Shown here one piece after another: positions 33 to 34,503 of a DNA stretch of 34,505 bases (its first letter is position 1; every line of letters starts with the position of its first letter). Made by a program: the position numbers and the translations under genes. The DNA is taken from the IMG/VR virus record IMGVR_UViG_3300045136_000873, positions 1 through 34,505 of that record. One strand, written 5' to 3'. The notes below the pieces were generated by a model. The model saw only the letters and a list, made by a program, of their open reading frames with translations, was not told where the DNA came from and did no database searches. This DNA comes from a virus.

Positions 33-57
33 TGAGAACGCAGGAAAGTCGTGCAAA
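33..57 (+). repeat. Left terminal inverted repeat (attL-type end)
   Basis: This 25-bp segment begins with TG and matches the reverse complement of 34479-34503 at 19 of 25 positions without gaps, counted by eye. Both ends carry AACGC at positions 5-9 of the repeat and AAAGTCGTG at positions 13-21, at identical distance from the TG. TG...CA termini and inverted transposase sites are typical of Mu-family elements. The last bases of the window (GC) match positions 29-30, so a short target duplication is possible but cannot be resolved. Confidence 0.8.
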
Positions 58-104
58 TTGAGGGTCGGTTTTAGAAGGTGCTTTTGCGGAAGTGGATATG
101 CAGA

Positions 105-122: not shown

Positions 123-288
123 ATTATTTTTTGCACGGGACAAAAAGGGTGCTCGAAAAGGGTTGGATGACAAACCTGGGCATGACGAAAAGGGTAATCA
201 GCGGGGGGGGACAAATAAGAGCGGACAGCAGGCCAAAATTCGGGCTGACGAGCGCCGCGGCGTGGGCGGCTCAATTGAGCCTGGCTAA

Positions 289-633
289 TTACCTGGCGTT
301 GGGTGGCGGGGCGTCTTGCAGGCGGGCCAGGGCCGCCCAGAAATCATGATACGCGGGCAGCTTGGGGGCTTGATCGGGGAGGGCGCCGATGGCGGCCTTG
401 AAGTTGGGGTAGTCCACGGTCCGGGCCAGGGCGAGCATCAACTCCGGCCATTCCTCGGCGCGGAGCAGGAGGCGCCAGCGGTAGTCGCCCGGGGTTTCGA
501 GGAGGCGCCGCGGCGGCCAGCTCATGAACCGGCAAAGACGGTCGAGGTCCGCCCGCGCCCGGGCGCGCACCTGCCAGGTGCCGCGGGGTTTTTGGACGAT
601 GCTGAAGAATCCCAGGCGGGTGCAAAGCCACAT
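289..633 (-). CDS. Small conserved-looking protein, last gene of the leftward operon
   Basis: The gene encodes 114 residues, starting at ATG 633 and ending in TAA. It begins one base after the stop of the upstream gene, so it is probably coupled to it. The protein is soluble, with no signal or membrane segment. It has an N-terminal beta-rich stretch (LGFFSIVQKPRGTWQVRAR), an Arg-rich middle, and a C-terminal part with the motif DYPNFK followed by YHDFWAAL. It looks like a genuine folded protein of a hypothetical family, but I cannot assign a function. Its position behind the multidomain MuF gene and next to the element end makes it a candidate second immunity or cargo gene, which is inference from context. 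Confidence 0.75.
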   Translation of the reverse strand: MWLCTRLGFFSIVQKPRGTWQVRARARADLDRLCRFMSWPPRRLLETPGDYRWRLLLRAEEWPELMLALARTVDYPNFKAAIGALPDQAPKLPAYHDFWAALARLQDAPPPNAR

Positions 634-8678: not shown

Positions 8679-9662
8679 TTAGACCGCGCAGCCGCACATC
8701 TCGCGCACCACGCCGAGCACGGCCGCCGCGTCCAGGTCCTGCTCGGCGGTTTCCGCTCGCTGGCGCGCCTCGGCGATGGCGTCGTCCAGCAGCCGCAGGT
8801 TGTAATTCTTGCGCAGCAGGGGCAGCATCTCGCGGGCGACTACGGCCAGCTCGCCCCGCAGCCCGCCGGCCCGGCGCAGATAGGTGATTACGTCCGGCTC
8901 CCGAGTGCCGGAGGCGTAGGTGTCGAAGACGGGCTTCATGCAGCGCCCCAGGAACTGTTGGGCCTCGATCAAGGCCCCCACCGTGGCCGAGCGCACGCGG
9001 TCGAATTCCGTGCCGTAGGCCAGGTACACCGCGCGCGATTCGGTCTCGTCCACCAGCACCTTGAGGATGCGCATGAGCGCCACGCCGCCCTCGTGCGCCT
9101 CGTCAATCAGCAAGGTCTTGGGCTCGACCCGCAGCTTGGCAATGAGATGGTCCAGGGCGGCCTTTTTGCCGGCGCTGACCGGCGTCTCGCCCATGCGGTC
9201 GAGGATGCCGTGGCAGATGTGCACCAGGTTCTCGCGCCAGCTCGGGTTGGCGCGCACGTACAACCGGGTGGCGCGGTTTTCGTGGGCCGCCCGGCGCGCC
9301 CAGACCGTCTTGCCCACGCCCGTGGGCGCCAGGCAGACCAGGATGCGCCGGTCGGTGCGCTGGCCCTCGAGCCGGGCCAGCTTCAGGCTCATGGCGGCGG
9401 CGAAGCCCAAATCCTCGAGGTACTGGTCCACCGGCGTGCCGCCATCGAGCACCTGGGCCAGCTCGCCCAAGCGCGCCGCCAGGCGGCGGAGGTTGAGGCC
9501 CTCGAGCGTGCCGGTGAGCATCCGCTCGCGCCACGACTTGGCGCTGCCCAACTGGGGGTAGCGCGCCACCAGCTCGCGGTCAGACAACCGCAGCGTGTCC
9601 TGGATTTCCCGCACGCGCTGGACCACCGCCAGCACCTGCGCCCGTAGTTCTTTGTCTTCCAT
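8679..9662 (-). CDS. MuB-like AAA+ transposition ATPase
   Basis: The gene encodes 327 residues, starting at ATG 9662, 27 bases after the transposase stop, with GGGAG ahead of the start. The Walker A motif APTGVGKT is at 112-119 and the Walker B motif LLIDEAH at 184-190. The N-terminal 70 residues form a helical DNA-binding-like domain (LSDRELVARYPQLGSAKSWRERMLTG), as in MuB. MuB-type ATPases bind target DNA, stimulate the transposase and give target immunity. Adjacency to the DDE transposase makes the assignment secure. The C-terminal region is helical, as expected for the AAA+ lid. Confidence 0.92.
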   Translation of the reverse strand: MEDKELRAQVLAVVQRVREIQDTLRLSDRELVARYPQLGSAKSWRERMLTGTLEGLNLRRLAARLGELAQVLDGGTPVDQYLEDLGFAAAMSLKLARLEGQRTDRRILVCLAPTGVGKTVWARRAAHENRATRLYVRANPSWRENLVHICHGILDRMGETPVSAGKKAALDHLIAKLRVEPKTLLIDEAHEGGVALMRILKVLVDETESRAVYLAYGTEFDRVRSATVGALIEAQQFLGRCMKPVFDTYASGTREPDVITYLRRAGGLRGELAVVAREMLPLLRKNYNLRLLDDAIAEARQRAETAEQDLDAAAVLGVVREMCGCAV

Positions 9663-9689: not shown

Positions 9690-11717
9690 TCAACGCAGCG
9701 CGTCCTCGAACGCGCTCACGAATCCCGGCGTCGGCCGGGAAAGGGCTCCTGGAAGCGGGGTGAGCCGGTGTGTTTCACCAGGTCCTTCGCCGGGCGCGAA
9801 GTCACACAGCGACGTCTCGCGGCGCCGCCCCGGACCGGGTTCTCCCCGGCCACCATGCACCGGCTCACGCGCCCCCTCCACCCGGGCCCGGCGGCCCGTC
9901 CCGTCATCGGTGGTCGAGGTGCGCCGGCCCAGCCACGTCCAGGCTTCCGTGCGCACGGCCCGGGCCATCGCCTGGCGCACCGCCAAATGCTCGCGCGCGG
10001 CCGAGGCCGCGCCCCACTCCTCCGCCAGCACCAGCGCCGGCGGCAGCTCGAGCGCGGGCACCTCCCGCGCCACCACCTGACCCGGGCGCTCGTCCCGCCA
10101 GGGCTCATCCAGCACCAGCGTCCCCCGCACGTCCTCCGCGTAGGGATCGAAGTACACGCGCAACCGCACCCCCTCATACGCGGCCAGCTCCGGCGGCTGG
10201 AAATACACCGGCACGCGCAACCACGGCCCGGTCACCACCCCGCCCACCAGCCCGCCGCGCACCGTCCACCGACGCTGCTCGCGCGCGAAGAACAGGCTCA
10301 ACCCCTCATCCAGCCGCTCGAGCGGCGCCGCCGCCAGCCGCTCGGCCCACAGCTCCCGGGGCACCCACCGCCCCCAGGCCCGCGACTCGAGCGGCTCCCC
10401 GTTGGCAAACTCGACCGCCTGCACCAGCCGCGGCATCACCGACCCGAGACTCTCGAAATGCTCCCGCGGGTCCACCGCCCCCGCCTGAGCCTTGAGCGCC
10501 AGGTCCGTGACCGCCTCGAACCCGCCCCGCACGCGCCCCGCGTGGCCGGTCACCAGCGACAGCGGCGTCCAGAGCCGGTGGAAGGCGTTTTCCACCGCCG
10601 CCTTTTGCCGGGCGGACCACGCATTGACCACCGGCACGCGCGCCAGCTCGAGGGCGTCCCGCACGATCCGGCTCTCCCACGAGCCGCGCTCGAGCCGGAG
10701 CGCGCCCCGGGGCATCCCCACCTGCCGGAACGTGTCCCCCAGCAGCGCCAGCACGTCTTCGCCCCGGTACGAGGACTTGCCGCGGGCCACGACGTGGAAG
10801 GCGATGATGCAGCGCGAGCGCACGTCCACCACCGGCAGCAACTGCCAGCGGCCCAGCCGCACGCCGTAACGATCCGCGCAGGGATCGCCGCCCCAGGGCC
10901 AGGGCACCCAGGAGTAGAAGTTGAGCGTCCCGTCATCCGCCTCGAACACATCCCCCGCCTCGAGCACCCGCTCGCGGCCCGCCGCGTCCACCCACGTCAA
11001 CCGCCGCGGCGTCACCAGGGCCGGGGTCCGCCCCGGCTGCCGCACCGCGCGCAACACCAGCTCCGTCTGGTCCAGCAGCCGCAGCCAGCTCTCCGGCAGG
11101 CGGCGCGAGCGCCGCGCGCCCACCCACCGCCGCAGCGCCTCGCTCACGCGCGGATCCTCACTCGCCGCCGCCAGCCGCCAGGCCGCGGTGCGGCTCGACC
11201 CACCGTTGGGGCCGCCCAACGCCCCGGCGTCCAGCCGCGCGTAGATTTCCCGCGCCACCGCCACCTCCGCCTCCGTGGGCCGGTACGCCACCGGCCGGCC
11301 CGGGCGCGGCCGCGGCGCCAGGCCCGCCTCGCCCGCCGCCGCCACGCGGCGGCGCCACCGCGAGAGCGTGGCCGCGCTCACCCCCGCGGTCCGCGCCGCC
11401 GCGCTCGCCGGCACCCCCGCCGCCCGCAACGCCTGGTACTGCCGCCACACCGCCCGCCGCCGCGCCACCTCCGCTGCGTCCCGCGCGCGCACCCGCTCCG
11501 GCGCGCCGCGCGGGACGGGCTCGGGTCCGGGCACGGGGGCGTCAGACCTCGAGGTGGCGGGCACGGCGGGGGAATCTTCCGGCCCGGCAAGGCGGGGCCA
11601 GGTGGTGGCGGGCGGACACGCCGGCGCGAGCATGGGCCCATCATGCACAACCGGCGCGGTGAAATCGGCCCGCTCCGCGTGATTCCGGCCCCCTGGGTCC
11701 CTGGCCGTGCTCGCCAT
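9690..11717 (-). CDS. MuA-like DDE transposase
   Basis: The gene encodes 675 residues, with AGGGGAGG as ribosome-binding site before ATG 11717. The first 75 residues are low complexity. Residues 104-125 (ASAAARTAGVSAATLSRWRRR) are an HTH domain, followed by a long helical DNA-binding part. The catalytic RNase H core lies at about 250-385: EADDGTLN (Asp262), VVDVRSRCIIAF, LRLERGSWES (Glu343) and KAAVENAFHRLW (Glu376). By eye these align with MuA Asp269, Asp336 and Glu392, so the second acid is Glu instead of Asp. A beta-barrel-like domain follows (500-570, VYFDPYAEDVRG). The C-terminal 75 residues are disordered. It should catalyse replicative transposition and integration. Length is close to MuA (663). 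Confidence 0.92.
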   Translation of the reverse strand: MASTARDPGGRNHAERADFTAPVVHDGPMLAPACPPATTWPRLAGPEDSPAVPATSRSDAPVPGPEPVPRGAPERVRARDAAEVARRRAVWRQYQALRAAGVPASAAARTAGVSAATLSRWRRRVAAAGEAGLAPRPRPGRPVAYRPTEAEVAVAREIYARLDAGALGGPNGGSSRTAAWRLAAASEDPRVSEALRRWVGARRSRRLPESWLRLLDQTELVLRAVRQPGRTPALVTPRRLTWVDAAGRERVLEAGDVFEADDGTLNFYSWVPWPWGGDPCADRYGVRLGRWQLLPVVDVRSRCIIAFHVVARGKSSYRGEDVLALLGDTFRQVGMPRGALRLERGSWESRIVRDALELARVPVVNAWSARQKAAVENAFHRLWTPLSLVTGHAGRVRGGFEAVTDLALKAQAGAVDPREHFESLGSVMPRLVQAVEFANGEPLESRAWGRWVPRELWAERLAAAPLERLDEGLSLFFAREQRRWTVRGGLVGGVVTGPWLRVPVYFQPPELAAYEGVRLRVYFDPYAEDVRGTLVLDEPWRDERPGQVVAREVPALELPPALVLAEEWGAASAAREHLAVRQAMARAVRTEAWTWLGRRTSTTDDGTGRRARVEGAREPVHGGRGEPGPGRRRETSLCDFAPGEGPGETHRLTPLPGALSRPTPGFVSAFEDALR

Positions 11718-11729
11718 GCGCCCCTCCCC

Positions 11730-12644
11730 TCAAATCTCCTTCCAGTGGCCGTAGAGCTCCGGCTGCAAGGCCTTGAGCCGCTTGCGCGCGATGTGGTCCA
11801 TCTCCCGCCCCAGATGCACCAGGCGCCCCAGCGTCTCGGCGTCCTCGAGCGCCTCGATGGCCTGGTCCATCTGCTCGATCAACTGATGCGTCTCCTCGAG
11901 ACTCACCCGCCCCGTCATCCGCAGCCAGCGCTCGAACCCGCCCCACCACAGCACCGCCGGCGTGCGCGCCGCGGGCCGCGGCACGCCCCGCGTGGCCTTC
12001 CAACCCGCGTACCCGGCTATCGCCGCCCCCAGGCCCACCGCCCGGTCCGGCTCATCCAACACCCGCGGCTCCATCATCGCCTTGTACTCGGGCGAGTCCT
12101 GGAAAATCTTCCGCAACTCCCGCGCCTGCTCGATGAGCCGCGGCGAGACGCCCAGCCAATGAGCCAGGATTTCCGCTTTCTTGCCGTGGGGCTTCAGCCC
12201 GGCCAGGCGGGCCTCCAAGAGCGGCAGGGCCAGATACGCCAGTTGCCCGCGGCTGTAATGCTTGCGCGCCAGCAGCGTGTGCAGGATCACCTCCGCCGCC
12301 TCCTCCTCCGGCCGGATTTCCACCGGCACCGCATCGAGGCCCACCCGGCGCGCCGCCCGCCAGCGGTGCACCCCGTCCAGGATGCGCCGCTGTGAATCGC
12401 AGATCAGCGGCACCTGCACCCCGCACTCTTGCACGCTGGCGCACAAGGCCAGAAAGCGCGGGTCCTCCTCCGCCCAGCCCGGCAGCCGGTTCAACGGATG
12501 CGGCGCCAGCTCGGCCACGGGACACTCGATCACCCGCCGCTCGCCGCTCACCGCTCGCCCCTCGTCCCTCGCCCCTGGACCCTCGATCCTCGCCCCTGGA
12601 CCCTCGCCCATCGTCCCGGGACCCTCGACCCTCATTTTTGGCAT
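11730..12644 (-). CDS. ParB-like nuclease-domain protein
   Basis: About 304 residues from ATG 12644. Other possible starts are TTG 12659, ATG 12635, or a GTG further in, because the first 35 residues are encoded by 7-nt repeats (EGPGARIEGPGARDEG). From residue 38 the ParB/Srx fold is clear: VIECPVAELAPHPLNRLPG, then LCASVQECGVQVPLICD and the motif DGVHRWRAAR. A helical segment with HTH character (LAHWLGVSPRLIEQARELRKIF) follows. It ends 12 bases before the transposase start. ParB-like proteins next to the transposase occur in several Mu-like phages. A DNA-binding or nuclease role in replication or regulation is likely. Confidence 0.85.
   Translation of the reverse strand: MPKMRVEGPGTMGEGPGARIEGPGARDEGRAVSGERRVIECPVAELAPHPLNRLPGWAEEDPRFLALCASVQECGVQVPLICDSQRRILDGVHRWRAARRVGLDAVPVEIRPEEEAAEVILHTLLARKHYSRGQLAYLALPLLEARLAGLKPHGKKAEILAHWLGVSPRLIEQARELRKIFQDSPEYKAMMEPRVLDEPDRAVGLGAAIAGYAGWKATRGVPRPAARTPAVLWWGGFERWLRMTGRVSLEETHQLIEQMDQAIEALEDAETLGRLVHLGREMDHIARKRLKALQPELYGHWKEI
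12537..12640. repeat. Degenerate 7-nt repeat array at the ParB start
   Basis: The plus strand shows CGCTCGC, CCCTCGT, CCCTCGC, CCCTGGA, CCCTCGA and similar heptads. On the coding (minus) strand they read GAG-rich. The array lies at the 5' end of the ParB-like gene and makes its true start uncertain. Either the repeats are translated or translation begins at a GTG inside them. Confidence 0.85.
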
Positions 12645-12749
12645 GGCGTTAGCTATCAAAGCGCATTTTAGCTAGAACTGGCGTGACTTGGCCTCGATCG
12701 CACTCAGTGCGCTCGGCCCTCTTTTCGGGGCCATCTTCAGGCGCAGGCG
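12640..12749. repeat. First copy of a ~110-bp direct repeat with AT-rich dyad
   Basis: This stretch matches 13389-13498 at a constant offset of 749 bases, with 29 bases unbroken (starting at GCTAGAACTGG) and only scattered changes elsewhere. It covers the 3' end of the 86-aa gene and the short gap to the ParB-like gene. Just after the stop codon lies an imperfect dyad: AGCTA, AAA, then TTT, TAGCT around a GCGCA centre. A perfect small palindrome CGCACT-C-AGTGCG also sits in the coding part. It may be an operator. Confidence 0.75.
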
Positions 12750-12932
12750 ACGGCCCGGCCGGTCATCCGGGTTCACCAGCCGCACCAGCTCCGCCAGCGC
12801 GGCCTCGGTCCCCGCGGGTGCCTCCGTGTGGTCGGAGGCCGTCACCCGGTACACCGCCGGCCTCACCCCCCACTCATCGGCTGCCCCGTACCTCAGAAAT
12901 TCAACCGTGATCTGTTTTTCTGGTGTCGTCAT
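12672..12932 (-). CDS. Small unknown early protein (86 aa)
   Basis: The start is taken at ATG 12932 (MTTPEKQITVEFLRYG), inside the 3' end of the RHH gene (32-nt overlap); the longer frame upstream is a shadow of that gene. The N-terminal half looks beta-rich (ITVEFLRYGAADEWGVRPAVYRVTA), followed by a helix and a basic tail ending RRLRLKMAPKRGPSALSAIEAKSRQF. A truncated second copy of this tail is found at 13421-13510. Function unknown. As second gene of the early operon it may be regulatory. Confidence 0.68.
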   Translation of the reverse strand: MTTPEKQITVEFLRYGAADEWGVRPAVYRVTASDHTEAPAGTEAALAELVRLVNPDDRPGRRLRLKMAPKRGPSALSAIEAKSRQF

Positions 12933-13293: not shown

Positions 13294-13388
13294 TGAGCAG
13301 GGAGGGCCGCCCCCCGCCCCTCAATTCTCAATTCACGCTTCACGCTTCTCGCCCCCGCCCCTCGCCTCTCGACTCTCGGCCTTTTTCT
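13294..13388. repeat. 7-nt repeat array in the central intergenic region
   Basis: The plus strand shows CAATTCT, CAATTCA, CGCTTCA, CGCTTCT, CGCCCCC and CTCTCGA heptads. The stretch CGCCCCTCAATTCTCAATTC recurs exactly at about 13515. No gene is supported in 13123-13655 beyond the remnant at 13421-13510. The rest of this interval holds the promoter candidates and repeats. Confidence 0.85.
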
Positions 13389-13498
13389 GGCACGCCACTA
13401 GCTGCAAAAGTGCATTTTGGCTAGAACTGGCGTGACTTGGCCTCGATCGCACTGAGTGCGCCCGACGCCCTTTTCGGGGCCATCTTCAGGCGCAGCCG
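13389..13498. repeat. Second copy of the ~110-bp direct repeat with dyad
   Basis: This is the partner of 12640-12749. The dyad has diverged in sequence but keeps its symmetry: CTAGC, CAAAA, then TTTTG, GCTAG around GTGCA. The small palindrome CGCACT-G-AGTGCG also keeps perfect arms although its central base changed. Preserved symmetry with changed sequence hints at function, for example as an operator between the two divergent blocks. Confidence 0.7.
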
Positions 13499-13510
13499 CC
13501 GCCTCTGCGG
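13421..13510 (-). pseudogene. Truncated second copy of the 86-aa protein's C-terminus
   Basis: The minus strand encodes RRRLRLKMAPKRASGALSAIEAKSRQF then TAG, against RRLRLKMAPKRGPSALSAIEAKSRQF then TAG in the intact gene. Upstream of this tail the similarity stops and 7-nt repeats begin, so the gene body and start are missing. It is most simply a remnant of duplication or of recombination between repeat arrays. Confidence 0.7.
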
Positions 13511-15341: not shown

Positions 15342-16829
15342 ATGCCTGCCGCCGCGCCTCCCCCAGCCGGCCGCCCGGATCGCCACGGCCGCGAGGCCCT
15401 CATCCGCTTCCTGCCCTACCAGCGCGAGGCCTTCGCGGACCGTCATCACGGCGTCGCCATCTGGTTCTGGGGCCGCCAATGCCGCAAATCCAGCACCGGC
15501 GCGGCCTGGGCGGTGGACCGGCTGCTGACCCAGGTGCCCAAACATGGCCGCTGGCTGGTGACCGTGCTCTCGAACTCGAAGGACAACGGCGCCGAGTTCA
15601 ACCTCAAAGTGGGCGAAATCTGCGAGCTGCTCGGCCAGGCCTATGAGGCCGCGGACCTCAGCCCCGACGGCCTCTACGAGCACATGGTGTACGAGACGCG
15701 CGTCCACGTGGGCGGCGGCGTGGGGCGCATCAAGGTCCTGGCCGCCAACCCCCGCACCGCGCGCGGCTTCTCCGGCGACCTCATCCTCGACGAATTCGCC
15801 TTCCACGAAGACAGCCAGCGCATCTGGGAAGCGGCGGAGCCGATCCTGGCGGCGCACCCGGAGTATCTGTGCCGGATCATGAGCACGGGCAACGGCCGCC
15901 AGAACATGTTTTACCGCATGGTCACCAGCGGCCGGTACCCGGTCTCGAACATCCGCCGCTCCGACGCCTGGCGCCAGGGCCTGCCGGTGTACCATCCGGT
16001 CACCCGCGAGCCCATCACCCCGGACCAGGCCCGCGAGCTGGCCCTGGACAAGCGCGCCTACGACCAGAATTACGAGAACGTCCTGAGCGATGAAAGCATG
16101 GCGCTGCTCACCTACGAGCTGATCGGCGCCGCCGAAGACCCGGACGTGGGCGAAATCTGCGAACAGGACTGGTCCGCCGCCGCGCTGGCGCGCCTCCACG
16201 CGGCCCGGGGCGACCTCTACGCCGGCGTGGACGTGGGCCGGAGCCGCGACCTCACCGTCCTCAGCGTCTTCGAGCGCCTGGGCGGGCAATGGCTCTGCCG
16301 CGCCCTGCTGCGCTGCGCCGGGATGCGCCTGCCCGAGCAACAGCGCCGCCTGCGCGCCGTCTGCGAAGCCCCGCGCTTCCATCGCGCGGCCATTGACATG
16401 ACCGGCCTGGGCCTGGGGCTGGTCGAATACGCCCAGGAACAATTCGGGCGGGGCCGCATCCTGGGCGTCAATTTCGCCACCAGCGTGCCCCTCACCCGCC
16501 GCCTGGCCGCCAGCGGCCGCGCCGCCGACCGCGTGCGCGTGACCGAGGCGATGGCCACGGAACTGCTCGCCGCCTACGAAGACCGCCGCATCAAACACCC
16601 CGTGGACGAACTCTTGCGCGAAGACCTCCGCAAACCCGAGCGCCTCACCACCCCGGGCGGCCGGGTCAGCATCGCCGCCGCCGCCGACGCCTCCGGGCAC
16701 GCGGACCATTTCTGGTCGTTCGCCCTGGCCATCGAGGCCGGGCACCTGGCCGCCGAAGGCGCCATCCGCGACGCCGGCGGCATCACCCTGCAAACCCCGC
16801 GTTACCGCCCTCGCTGGTACTGGCGCTGA
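15342..16829 (+). CDS. Large terminase subunit (Mu gp28-like)
   Basis: The gene encodes 495 residues. A variant Walker A (GRQCRKSS, 44-51) follows FLPYQREAF, which acts like a Q-motif. Walker B is DLILDEFA (146-153) and the coupling motif STGNG is at 181-185. The nuclease domain begins with YAGVDVGRSRDLTV (Asp297) and continues with AAIDMTGLGLG and SGHADHFW. This is the ATPase-nuclease order of packaging motors and fits the Mu gp28 type. It cuts and pumps DNA into the prohead. Mu-type terminases package headful from the left end with some host DNA. Confidence 0.93.
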   Translation: MPAAAPPPAGRPDRHGREALIRFLPYQREAFADRHHGVAIWFWGRQCRKSSTGAAWAVDRLLTQVPKHGRWLVTVLSNSKDNGAEFNLKVGEICELLGQAYEAADLSPDGLYEHMVYETRVHVGGGVGRIKVLAANPRTARGFSGDLILDEFAFHEDSQRIWEAAEPILAAHPEYLCRIMSTGNGRQNMFYRMVTSGRYPVSNIRRSDAWRQGLPVYHPVTREPITPDQARELALDKRAYDQNYENVLSDESMALLTYELIGAAEDPDVGEICEQDWSAAALARLHAARGDLYAGVDVGRSRDLTVLSVFERLGGQWLCRALLRCAGMRLPEQQRRLRAVCEAPRFHRAAIDMTGLGLGLVEYAQEQFGRGRILGVNFATSVPLTRRLAASGRAADRVRVTEAMATELLAAYEDRRIKHPVDELLREDLRKPERLTTPGGRVSIAAAADASGHADHFWSFALAIEAGHLAAEGAIRDAGGITLQTPRYRPRWYWR

Positions 16830-16979: not shown

Positions 16980-18734
16980 ATGTGGAACCCCTGGCCATTG
17001 ACCGCCGCCGCCCGCCCTGCGCCCGAACCCCCCCTCAAGACCGTGGTCGTGCCCGCCGCGCGCGACCGCTGGCTGGCCGCCGGCCTGACCGACCTCACCC
17101 CCGAGCAAATCTACAGCACCCTGCGCGGCGCGCTCTCCGGCGACCTGCTGCAGGTCTGGCGGCTGTTCGATGTCATGGAAGACACCTGGCCGCGCCTGGC
17201 GGTCAACCTGGCCAAGGTGCGCGCCGCGGTCAAACGCCACGACTGGACGCTCCAAGCCTGGGCGCCGCTCGGCGGCCGGCCCTCCGCGGAGGCCATGCGG
17301 CGCGCGCGCATGCTCGGCGACGCCATCTGGTCCATGCGGCCCGCGCCCGACCTGGACGAGTTGGGCTGGGAGGGCACGCTCGATGCCCTGATGGACGCCT
17401 GGGGCAAGGGCGTGAGCGTGATCGAGCTGGACTGGGAGCTGCGGGACACCGCCGAGGGCGCCTTCATCGCCCCGCGCTGCACGCACTGGGTCCACCCGCG
17501 CTACTATGGCTGGCCCAGCGAGGACCGCCCCGATGGCGACCGCCTCATGCTGCGCGCCAGCGAGGTGCTCCCCCGCAGCCAGGCGCTCGGGCCCGCGCCC
17601 CAAGACTGGCTGCCCTTCCCCCCGCGCAAATTCATCTTGGGCGTCTGCAAGGCCCGCACCACCCACGCCGCCGCGGCCGCGCGCCTGCGCCAGCTCGCCT
17701 GGTGGTGGTGCGTCTCGAACTTCTCCGGCCAGTGGCTGGTCAATTACGCCCAGCTCTTCGGCGTGCCGATCCGCTGGGCCACGTACGACCCCGCCCGGCC
17801 CGACCTGCGCCCCGTGCTCGAACAAATGCTCGAGCGCATGGGCTCGGCCGGCTGGGCCGTGATGCCCGAGGGCACCAGCCTCACCCTCCACGCCGCGCCC
17901 GGCGGCGCCGCGGAAAACCCCCAACTGGCGCTGCTGCAACTGGCGGACCGCATTTGCGACGTGGCCATCCTGGGCCAGACGCTTACCACCGACGTGGGCG
18001 CCAGCGGCAGCCGCGCCCTTGGCGAGGTACACAAGGAAGTGCAGGATGAAATAGTGCAGGCCGCCATTCGCTGGCTGGCCAGCACGCTCAACGAGCAGCT
18101 CCTGCCCTCTTGGTGCGAACTGAACTGGGGCGACCGCCGCGAATGCCCGTACTTCCTGGACCGCGCCCCGGCCGAGCGCGACACCCGCGCCACCGCCGAG
18201 ACCTTCGAGGTGGTGCTCCGCTCCGGCGTGCCCATCCCGCGCGATTTCTACTACGAACAACTCGGCATCCCTCAACCCGAACCCGACCAGCCCGTCATCA
18301 TGCCCCCGTCCACGGCCGTCCTCCCGCCCTCCCCACTGCCGGACCCCGCCCAGGCCCGCCGCCCGGGCGCCCCCCCGGCCCCGCCCCCCGCCGCGCTCGG
18401 AGCGGCGTACTTCGCCCGGCAAATCCAAAACCAGGCCCTCGCGGACCACGTGCTCGAGGATTTGACCGGCATCGAGGCCGCCTGGCTGGGCGGGGCGCGG
18501 CCCTGGCTGGCCCGCCTGGTCGAGGCCGCGCAGGACCCGAAGGTCAGCGATGCTGAATTCCTCGAACTGCTCGAGCGCGCGCGCCGCAACGTCCCCTCCG
18601 AGCTGGCCCCCTTGCTCCACCCGGAAGCCGTCAGCGAAGCGCTGGAACGCGCCCTGGGCGCGGCCTGCGTGAATGGCGCCCTCGAGGGGTTCCGCCGCCG
18701 GCGCCTCCCCGCCCCCGGCGACCCGGCCGCATGA
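16980..18734 (+). CDS. Portal protein (DUF935, Mu gp29-like)
   Basis: The gene encodes 584 residues. LTPEQIYSTLRGALSGDLLQVWRLFDVMEDTWPRLAVNLAKVRAAVKRHDW is the typical start of DUF935 portals, and KGVSVIELDWEL plus WVHPRYYGWPSE continue it. A long region with LLQLADRICDVAILGQTLTTDVGASGSRALGEVHKEV matches the conserved core. The C-terminus is helical. Twelve copies would form the ring through which DNA enters the head. The stop overlaps the next gene by ATGA. Longer than Mu gp29 by a modest amount. Confidence 0.92.
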   Translation: MWNPWPLTAAARPAPEPPLKTVVVPAARDRWLAAGLTDLTPEQIYSTLRGALSGDLLQVWRLFDVMEDTWPRLAVNLAKVRAAVKRHDWTLQAWAPLGGRPSAEAMRRARMLGDAIWSMRPAPDLDELGWEGTLDALMDAWGKGVSVIELDWELRDTAEGAFIAPRCTHWVHPRYYGWPSEDRPDGDRLMLRASEVLPRSQALGPAPQDWLPFPPRKFILGVCKARTTHAAAAARLRQLAWWWCVSNFSGQWLVNYAQLFGVPIRWATYDPARPDLRPVLEQMLERMGSAGWAVMPEGTSLTLHAAPGGAAENPQLALLQLADRICDVAILGQTLTTDVGASGSRALGEVHKEVQDEIVQAAIRWLASTLNEQLLPSWCELNWGDRRECPYFLDRAPAERDTRATAETFEVVLRSGVPIPRDFYYEQLGIPQPEPDQPVIMPPSTAVLPPSPLPDPAQARRPGAPPAPPPAALGAAYFARQIQNQALADHVLEDLTGIEAAWLGGARPWLARLVEAAQDPKVSDAEFLELLERARRNVPSELAPLLHPEAVSEALERALGAACVNGALEGFRRRRLPAPGDPAA

Positions 18735-34216: not shown

Positions 34217-34478
34217 CCCGGCGGCAAAGCGGCGGCCGCAGTGACGCCGCCCCGCCGCCGCCACATCGCGGGCCAGATTAGCGAGCTGTTTTTTTGTGAG
34301 TGGGGCTGCCCCCCCCAGCCTGCCAATCAATGCCCCCTGCCCGAATCGGTCCGCTGGCCGTGTTACAATTAGCTGCACAAATACCCAACGCCCCCGCCTC
34401 AACCCATCGCGTGGCAACCCATCCCCCGATCTACTTTCCCGCCGCTTCCCTACCCATTTCACGACTTCGGCACGACCC
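34217..34478. other. Right non-coding end
   Basis: No gene is supported here. A 6-bp GC stem (GGCGGC at 34231, GCCGCC at 34246) is followed 38 bases later by seven T (34289-34295), at best a weak terminator for the virion operon. Another small hairpin (GGCTG, CAGCC) with a C-run lies at 34304-34320. TTAGCTGCACAAAT at 34369-34382 recalls the dyad half-site of the central repeats. The remainder leads to the transposase-type motifs. Confidence 0.5.
34452..34468 (-). repeat. Second right subterminal GTCGTG motif
   Basis: On the minus strand it reads GAAGTCGTGAAATGGGT, close to the AAAGTCGTGAAAAGGG of the terminal copy and in the same orientation. A partial third copy (AAAAGGGTCGTG) spans the gap between the two. 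Tandem sites of this kind at the right end match the R1-R3 arrangement of Mu transposase sites. Confidence 0.55.
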
Positions 34479-34503
34479 TTTTCACGACTTTTGCGCGTTT
34501 ACA
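34479..34503 (-). repeat. Right terminal inverted repeat (attR-type end)
   Basis: The reverse complement begins TGTAAACGC and carries AAAAGTCGTG at the same spacing as the left end. Only two bases (GC) follow in the window, so the junction with host DNA cannot be examined. The pairing with 33-57 defines the proposed element ends. Confidence 0.8.

Follow-up and report, generated by a model that had tools for sequence, protein, structure and literature searches.

Our analyses indicate that P0001, encoded on a virus contig that was analyzed over its whole length of 34,505 bases (the window; record IMGVR_UViG_3300045136_000873), is a Mu-like phage transposase (A protein) that most likely works as MuA does and belongs to a branch characterized by Asp261, Glu343 and Glu376, with a further conserved Asp262. 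We place the probability of this reading at roughly 0.84. The second catalytic acid of the Mu-like enzyme group is almost always an aspartate. P0001 departs from the D-D-E catalytic triad of Mu-type transposases, having Glu at the second place, and its branch is a real variant of these enzymes, of the form D(D)-E-E and probably active.

The P0001 gene (675 amino acids; 9690..11717, minus strand) lies in a phage. The whole element is contained in the window, at 33-34503, and the contig is of probable Verrucomicrobiota origin. Gene order on the minus strand is ParB-like protein, transposase, MuB-like ATPase. The ParB-like gene (11730..12659, minus strand; PF02195 at the cut-off; phrog_8071, E 4.1e-11) is directly upstream of P0001; in RcapMu, too, a ParB-like gene precedes the transposase gene, with one gene in between. 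The AAA+ ATPase (327 amino acids; 8679..9662, minus strand) matches PF13401 AAA_22 (E 1.6e-10) and phrog_296, DNA transposition protein (E 1.1e-9), and is likely the target-delivery partner of P0001. A MuB-type ATPase gene adjoins the transposase gene in Mu as well, and the same A-B gene pair is found in those of B3, D3112, RcapMu, HS6, Bise and BalMu-1 that are annotated so. The plus strand carries terminase, portal, protease, tape-measure and tail genes, among them the terminase large subunit (15342..16829; phrog_2, E 2.1e-23) and the portal protein (16980..18734; phrog_113, E 5.2e-73), for which Akkermansia phage Chantilly gives the best match of any named phage, at 30% identity. Mu-like prophage remnants are reported for a Verrucomicrobia genome (PMC6920513). 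Two types of repeat were also observed in the window: a 125-nt direct repeat (12635-12759 versus 13384-13508, 84% alike) and, in the stretch that separates the early region from the structural genes, 42-nt CCCTCGCCCCTCAATTC-type repeats.

Residues 86-526 of P0001 match phrog_310 (phage transposases) at E 9.5e-9, as the transposases of B3, D3112 and HS6 also match it; this score is weak compared with 1e-108 to 1e-224 in four classical members. Unlike MuA, P0001 has no Pfam DDE_2 match, and its N-terminal part is recognized above the Pfam cut-off by generic HTH models (HTH_29/HTH_28); HTH_Tnp_Mu_1/2 did not match this part. DDE_2, rve and Mu-transpos_C gave no match in P0001 up to E 0.1, and Mu-transpos_C gave weak, sub-cut-off matches in three relatives. 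Nothing was found by tblastn of P0001 in phages or plasmids, by tblastn of two of its relatives (L128 and L124) or of the window's MuB-like protein in phages, by phmmer of P0001 against PDB sequences, by exact-peptide queries of viral contigs with the full-length protein or its core, or by a DNA-level search with a degenerate version of the LRLERG-x-W motif. Genome contigs searched with a MuB alignment gave 594 stretches and 0 relatives.

The sequence-only reading had proposed a D-E-E set within residues 262-376 (10590-10934, minus strand), and alignment to MuA bears this out with one shift. It had set Asp262 against MuA Asp269; by MAFFT, hhalign and structural alignment, the counterpart is Asp261 (10935..10937), one residue earlier, and Asp262 (10932..10934), which replaces MuA Gly270, is an additional acidic residue. 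The other two assignments hold by both MAFFT and hhalign: Glu343 (GAG; 10689..10691), in the LRLERG block, falls on Asp336 of the MuA ITIDN block, and Glu376 (GAA; 10590..10592) falls on MuA Glu392. The set is D261/E343/E376, Asp262 being extra. Glu343 stands in the motif R-L-E-R-G-x-W, whose Trp347 (10677..10679) is invariant in the alignment of branch members; all four sites and this Trp are on the minus strand. The comparison of a 12-row branch profile with six classical Mu-like transposases by hhalign reached a probability of 99.4 (E 1.4e-21), and a 5-row branch profile returned the same residue correspondences.

P0001 and MuA share just ~12-16% identity, and at this distance the block could be misaligned, with another Asp being the true second residue. 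We consider this scarcely credible, as the two alignment methods concur, the predicted structure has the MuA fold, and the E-[RGNKM]-G motif of the branch copies the classical D-N-G. A search of the branch rows for other invariant Asp residues between positions 299 and 375 gave none besides D321, which is invariant across 12 rows but, once 18 rows are aligned, no longer counts among the columns that are invariant or almost so; thus, no Asp is better placed. D261, D262, E343 and E376 are the only invariant acidic columns in the 18 aligned rows.

The sequence-only reading had called for a structure model, and an AlphaFold2 model of P0001, built from a 5-row alignment, has an RNase H-like catalytic core whose topology is that of MuA. 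Overall quality is modest (mean pLDDT 59.3, pTM 0.48): ten-residue blocks average 61-86 over residues 251-370 and 51-56 over 371-390, with 62 for the E343 block and 51 for the E376 block. The order of elements is strand 257-260 followed by D261, strand 339-342 followed by E343, and helix 369-390, which carries E376. The top structural match is the MuA core of Escherichia phage Mu, 1bcm_A (Z 18.4 over 269 residues, rmsd 3.5). Its residues 257..560 superpose on 249..555 of the model with an offset of 8 at the start, which leads to Asp261; P0001 resembles MuA in the fold of this core, in the first Asp and in the third Glu. Foldseek returned a second MuA structure, 4fcy_B (E 7.3e-11). The fold also resembles that of TnsB of Tn7 and type V-K CAST (8ea3_X, Z 17.8), from which P0001 differs in its second-place Glu and in its phage setting, with a MuB-like gene as neighbor. 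TnsB has a D-D-E set and a likeness to MuA according to PMC9527255.

Relatives of P0001 share the Glu. Four of them, 26-36% identical, come from further viral contigs (L118, L120, L008 and L006). With a profile of these and P0001, five proteins that are all E members, 19 of the 387 genomes in the phylum to which an Opitutaceae genome belongs (Verrucomicrobiota) gave a match at E 1e-5 or better, and the catalytic region is covered in 17 of these (L123-L139). The branch as counted here consists of 22 readable proteins including P0001, 17 of them from Verrucomicrobiota genomes. Every one has D-D at the first site, E-[RGNKM]-G with a W close behind at the second, and E at the third; the E343 codon is GAG or GAA. 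Conservation of the Glu in all 22 members with the site region marks a real variant branch, the outcome that the sequence-only reading had named for this comparison. Left out of the counts were matches confined to the HTH part (L140 and L141), an HTH match that reads VDN, with Asp (L122), the C-terminal half of the divided gene L132 and a second entry for that gene (L142), two sequences that end ahead of the site (L191 and the fragment L212), and an Asp-type Planctomycetota protein (L197).

Phylum-wide profile searches covered Verrucomicrobiota (A5 profile) and Planctomycetota and Chloroflexota (A7 profile). In the latter two phyla, an 18-row profile found matches in 15 of the 294 Planctomycetota genomes and in 25 of the 301 from Chloroflexota, nearly all confined to the HTH part. 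The sole Planctomycetota match to the core is L197, of the Asp type; L212, a Chloroflexota contig fragment, is branch-like and ends ahead of the site. The A6 profile had no match in seven genomes of other groups. Among the loci tested, 13 have a MuB-like match next to their branch transposase, and an AAA_22 gene comes after the transposase in five long branch members. The neighbor of L118 is absent from the MuB-like matches; an ATPase-like frame follows L118 nonetheless. In one genome (L233 4940-8646, G025:C11), a PEP-CTERM gene comes directly after a branch transposase and AAA_22 ATPase, and this locus may be an A-B transposon without a phage.

The ends of the element resemble those of Mu: the termini are TG...CA, the end sites are related to each other, and the flanking DNA varies. 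The left end (33..60, plus strand) begins with TG and forms a 28-bp imperfect terminal inverted repeat with the right end (34476..34503, minus strand; 20 of 28 positions match), which closes with CA at 34503 and has more GTCGTG copies inward. The end pattern occurs at two places in the window, exactly the ends, with 0 expected from 100 shuffles. When viral contigs were scanned for this pattern, the only find was a twin contig of the same phage (L002, IMG/VR), which is 99.5% identical to the window over 15,169 aligned bases and 100% (rounded) identical over the last 2,004 element bases, up to 34503. Past this point, its 163 bases are unlike the window. The differing flanks are most simply read as the result of Mu-like insertion at different sites, and such flanks are expected if P0001 inserts at varied sites. 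Less probably, the junction at 34503 in the twin contig is a chimeric contig end. A reading frame opens in the 163-bp flank (twin contig, L165 3505-3667); the flank had no match in Pfam, NCBIfam or 230 Verrucomicrobiota genomes. Target-site duplication in Mu is 5 bp. The left flank of the window ends in GCAA and the right flank is GC, which fits a 4-bp duplication, but the right flank comprises just 2 bases. Comparison of three related prophages (L125, L126 and L127, in genomes G293, G096 and G290; ~92-95% alike at the transposase) yielded no target-site duplication, these prophages having diverged and the comparison having given no clear ends for them.

A transposase that lacks the second catalytic Asp of its classical relatives could be a decaying, inactive copy, and one branch relative is in fact split by a stop (L132, G186:C152; 362 + 332 amino acids, with the Glu kept). 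We regard decay of P0001 as highly improbable. The sequence-only reading had taken relatives with Asp as the sign of an inactive copy; the relatives, at ~17-36% identity, all have Glu. That the Glu is common to the whole family argues for a working variant over a broken copy, and the open reading frame is undivided in 21 of the 22 members. Four close branch pairs are under purifying selection, with dN/dS of 0.18-0.23 among the three related prophages and 0.15 for L129 versus L130 (551-579 codons in each comparison); the value of 0.87 for P0001 versus L118 rests on saturated sites of a distant pair and is not informative. The presence of the same phage with different flanks also suggests transposition.

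The sequence-only reading had called Glu rare at this place among active RNase H transposases. Within the sampled Mu/integrase group this stands: Asp occupies the second place in all eight phage comparators (Mu, D3112, B3, RcapMu, HS6, Bise, BalMu-1 and the fecal phage record MT835475). Of these, B3, D3112, RcapMu, HS6, Bise and BalMu-1 also differ from P0001 in having no Asp after the first Asp. The phrog_310 profile matched 178 of 374 Verrucomicrobiota genomes, and among the 30 best loci, 28 have Asp, one has Glu (L192) and one ends ahead of the site, a frequency of Glu of 1 in 29 readable matches; ordinary rve insertion-sequence transposases probably account for many of the 178. For RNase H-like enzymes as a whole, however, a superfamily review (PMC3985635) describes each of D, E and H as relatively common where strand 4 ends. 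The same text gives Glu on strand 4 for clades A, B, C and E and Asp for clade D, which is contrary to MuA Asp336, and this statement was set aside.

RuvC resolvases and the DEDD transposases of IS110 also have Glu at the end of strand 4, with an Asp pair on a reversed helix as the third site. Membership of P0001 in this IS110/RuvC type was rejected, its third site being E376 in [VI]-E-x-x-F.

The additional Asp262 accompanies the Glu. It is present in 23 of 23 E rows and in none of 36 D-type Mu/rve rows. How sequences were found bears on this tally: the genome D rows and L192 came from phrog_310, and L006 and L008 came from their MuB gene; one of two search patterns contained the first-site DD, and the Asp262 of L118 and L120 therefore does not count as independent evidence. 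In a tree of the 23 E and 36 D rows with the columns of the second site and of Asp262 omitted, the 22 branch members cluster (91/88), as does an inner group of 15 that includes the window (100/97). The remaining E row, L192 (G201:C78:94199-96358, minus strand), is a lone transposase with D-D at the first site and Glu at the second (RFERG). It is unique among the 374 Verrucomicrobiota genomes, its matches among named phages are D3112-like transposases at ~25%, and it sits among the D rows on a long branch of unsure place. L192 may represent a second origin of the Glu and Asp262 pair, or may share a single origin of the Glu with the branch. With one or two evolutionary events at most, the coupling of Glu and Asp262 is suggestive and falls short of proof.

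The same coupling admits another explanation, in which Asp262, beside Asp261, gives the second carboxylate, and E343 merely shapes a loop without being a catalytic ligand. Asp262 is as invariant as E343 and missing from the D rows, and an acidic residue adjoins the first Asp in RNase H2 and some transposases, as described in PMC3985635. We find this explanation improbable. The same source places the second canonical residue of this part of the superfamily at the C-terminal end of strand 4; in the model, E343 comes right after strand 339-342, and an invariant Glu is not expected if selection on the place had been lost.

In our preferred reading, with Glu343 as the second catalytic residue, P0001 would bind the GTCGTG-type sites that recur at both ends of the phage and would pair these ends. 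Three carboxylates would then hold two metal ions, and the enzyme would nick the 3' ends at CA and join them to target DNA that the MuB-like ATPase brings in. Glu343 would take the place of MuA Asp336 with one more carbon in its side chain; the E-x-G-x-W loop and Asp262 appear to have changed along with it, and have probably re-fitted the pocket. More tentatively, at somewhat below even odds, coupled changes may have produced a four-carboxylate site (D261-D262/E343/E376) that is active with altered metal geometry in a whole branch of the Mu/integrase group.

The sites of transposases and retroviral integrases are described as D-D-E/D, and the second Asp is treated as fixed. We found no description of a D-E-E transposase in openly licensed PMC literature. 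Since strand-4 Glu is known from other parts of the RNase H superfamily, the novelty lies within the Mu/integrase group: each feature has a precedent and, as far as we have seen, the combination is undescribed in the Mu group. Being natural and conserved, and having a covarying neighbor, the D-E-E branch offers a ready set of enzymes with which to ask why most transposases retain the Asp, for what the additional acid compensates, and whether metal preference shifts. The rve and DDE_2 models miss the transposases of these phages, and transposable phages of Verrucomicrobiota are therefore probably under-annotated.
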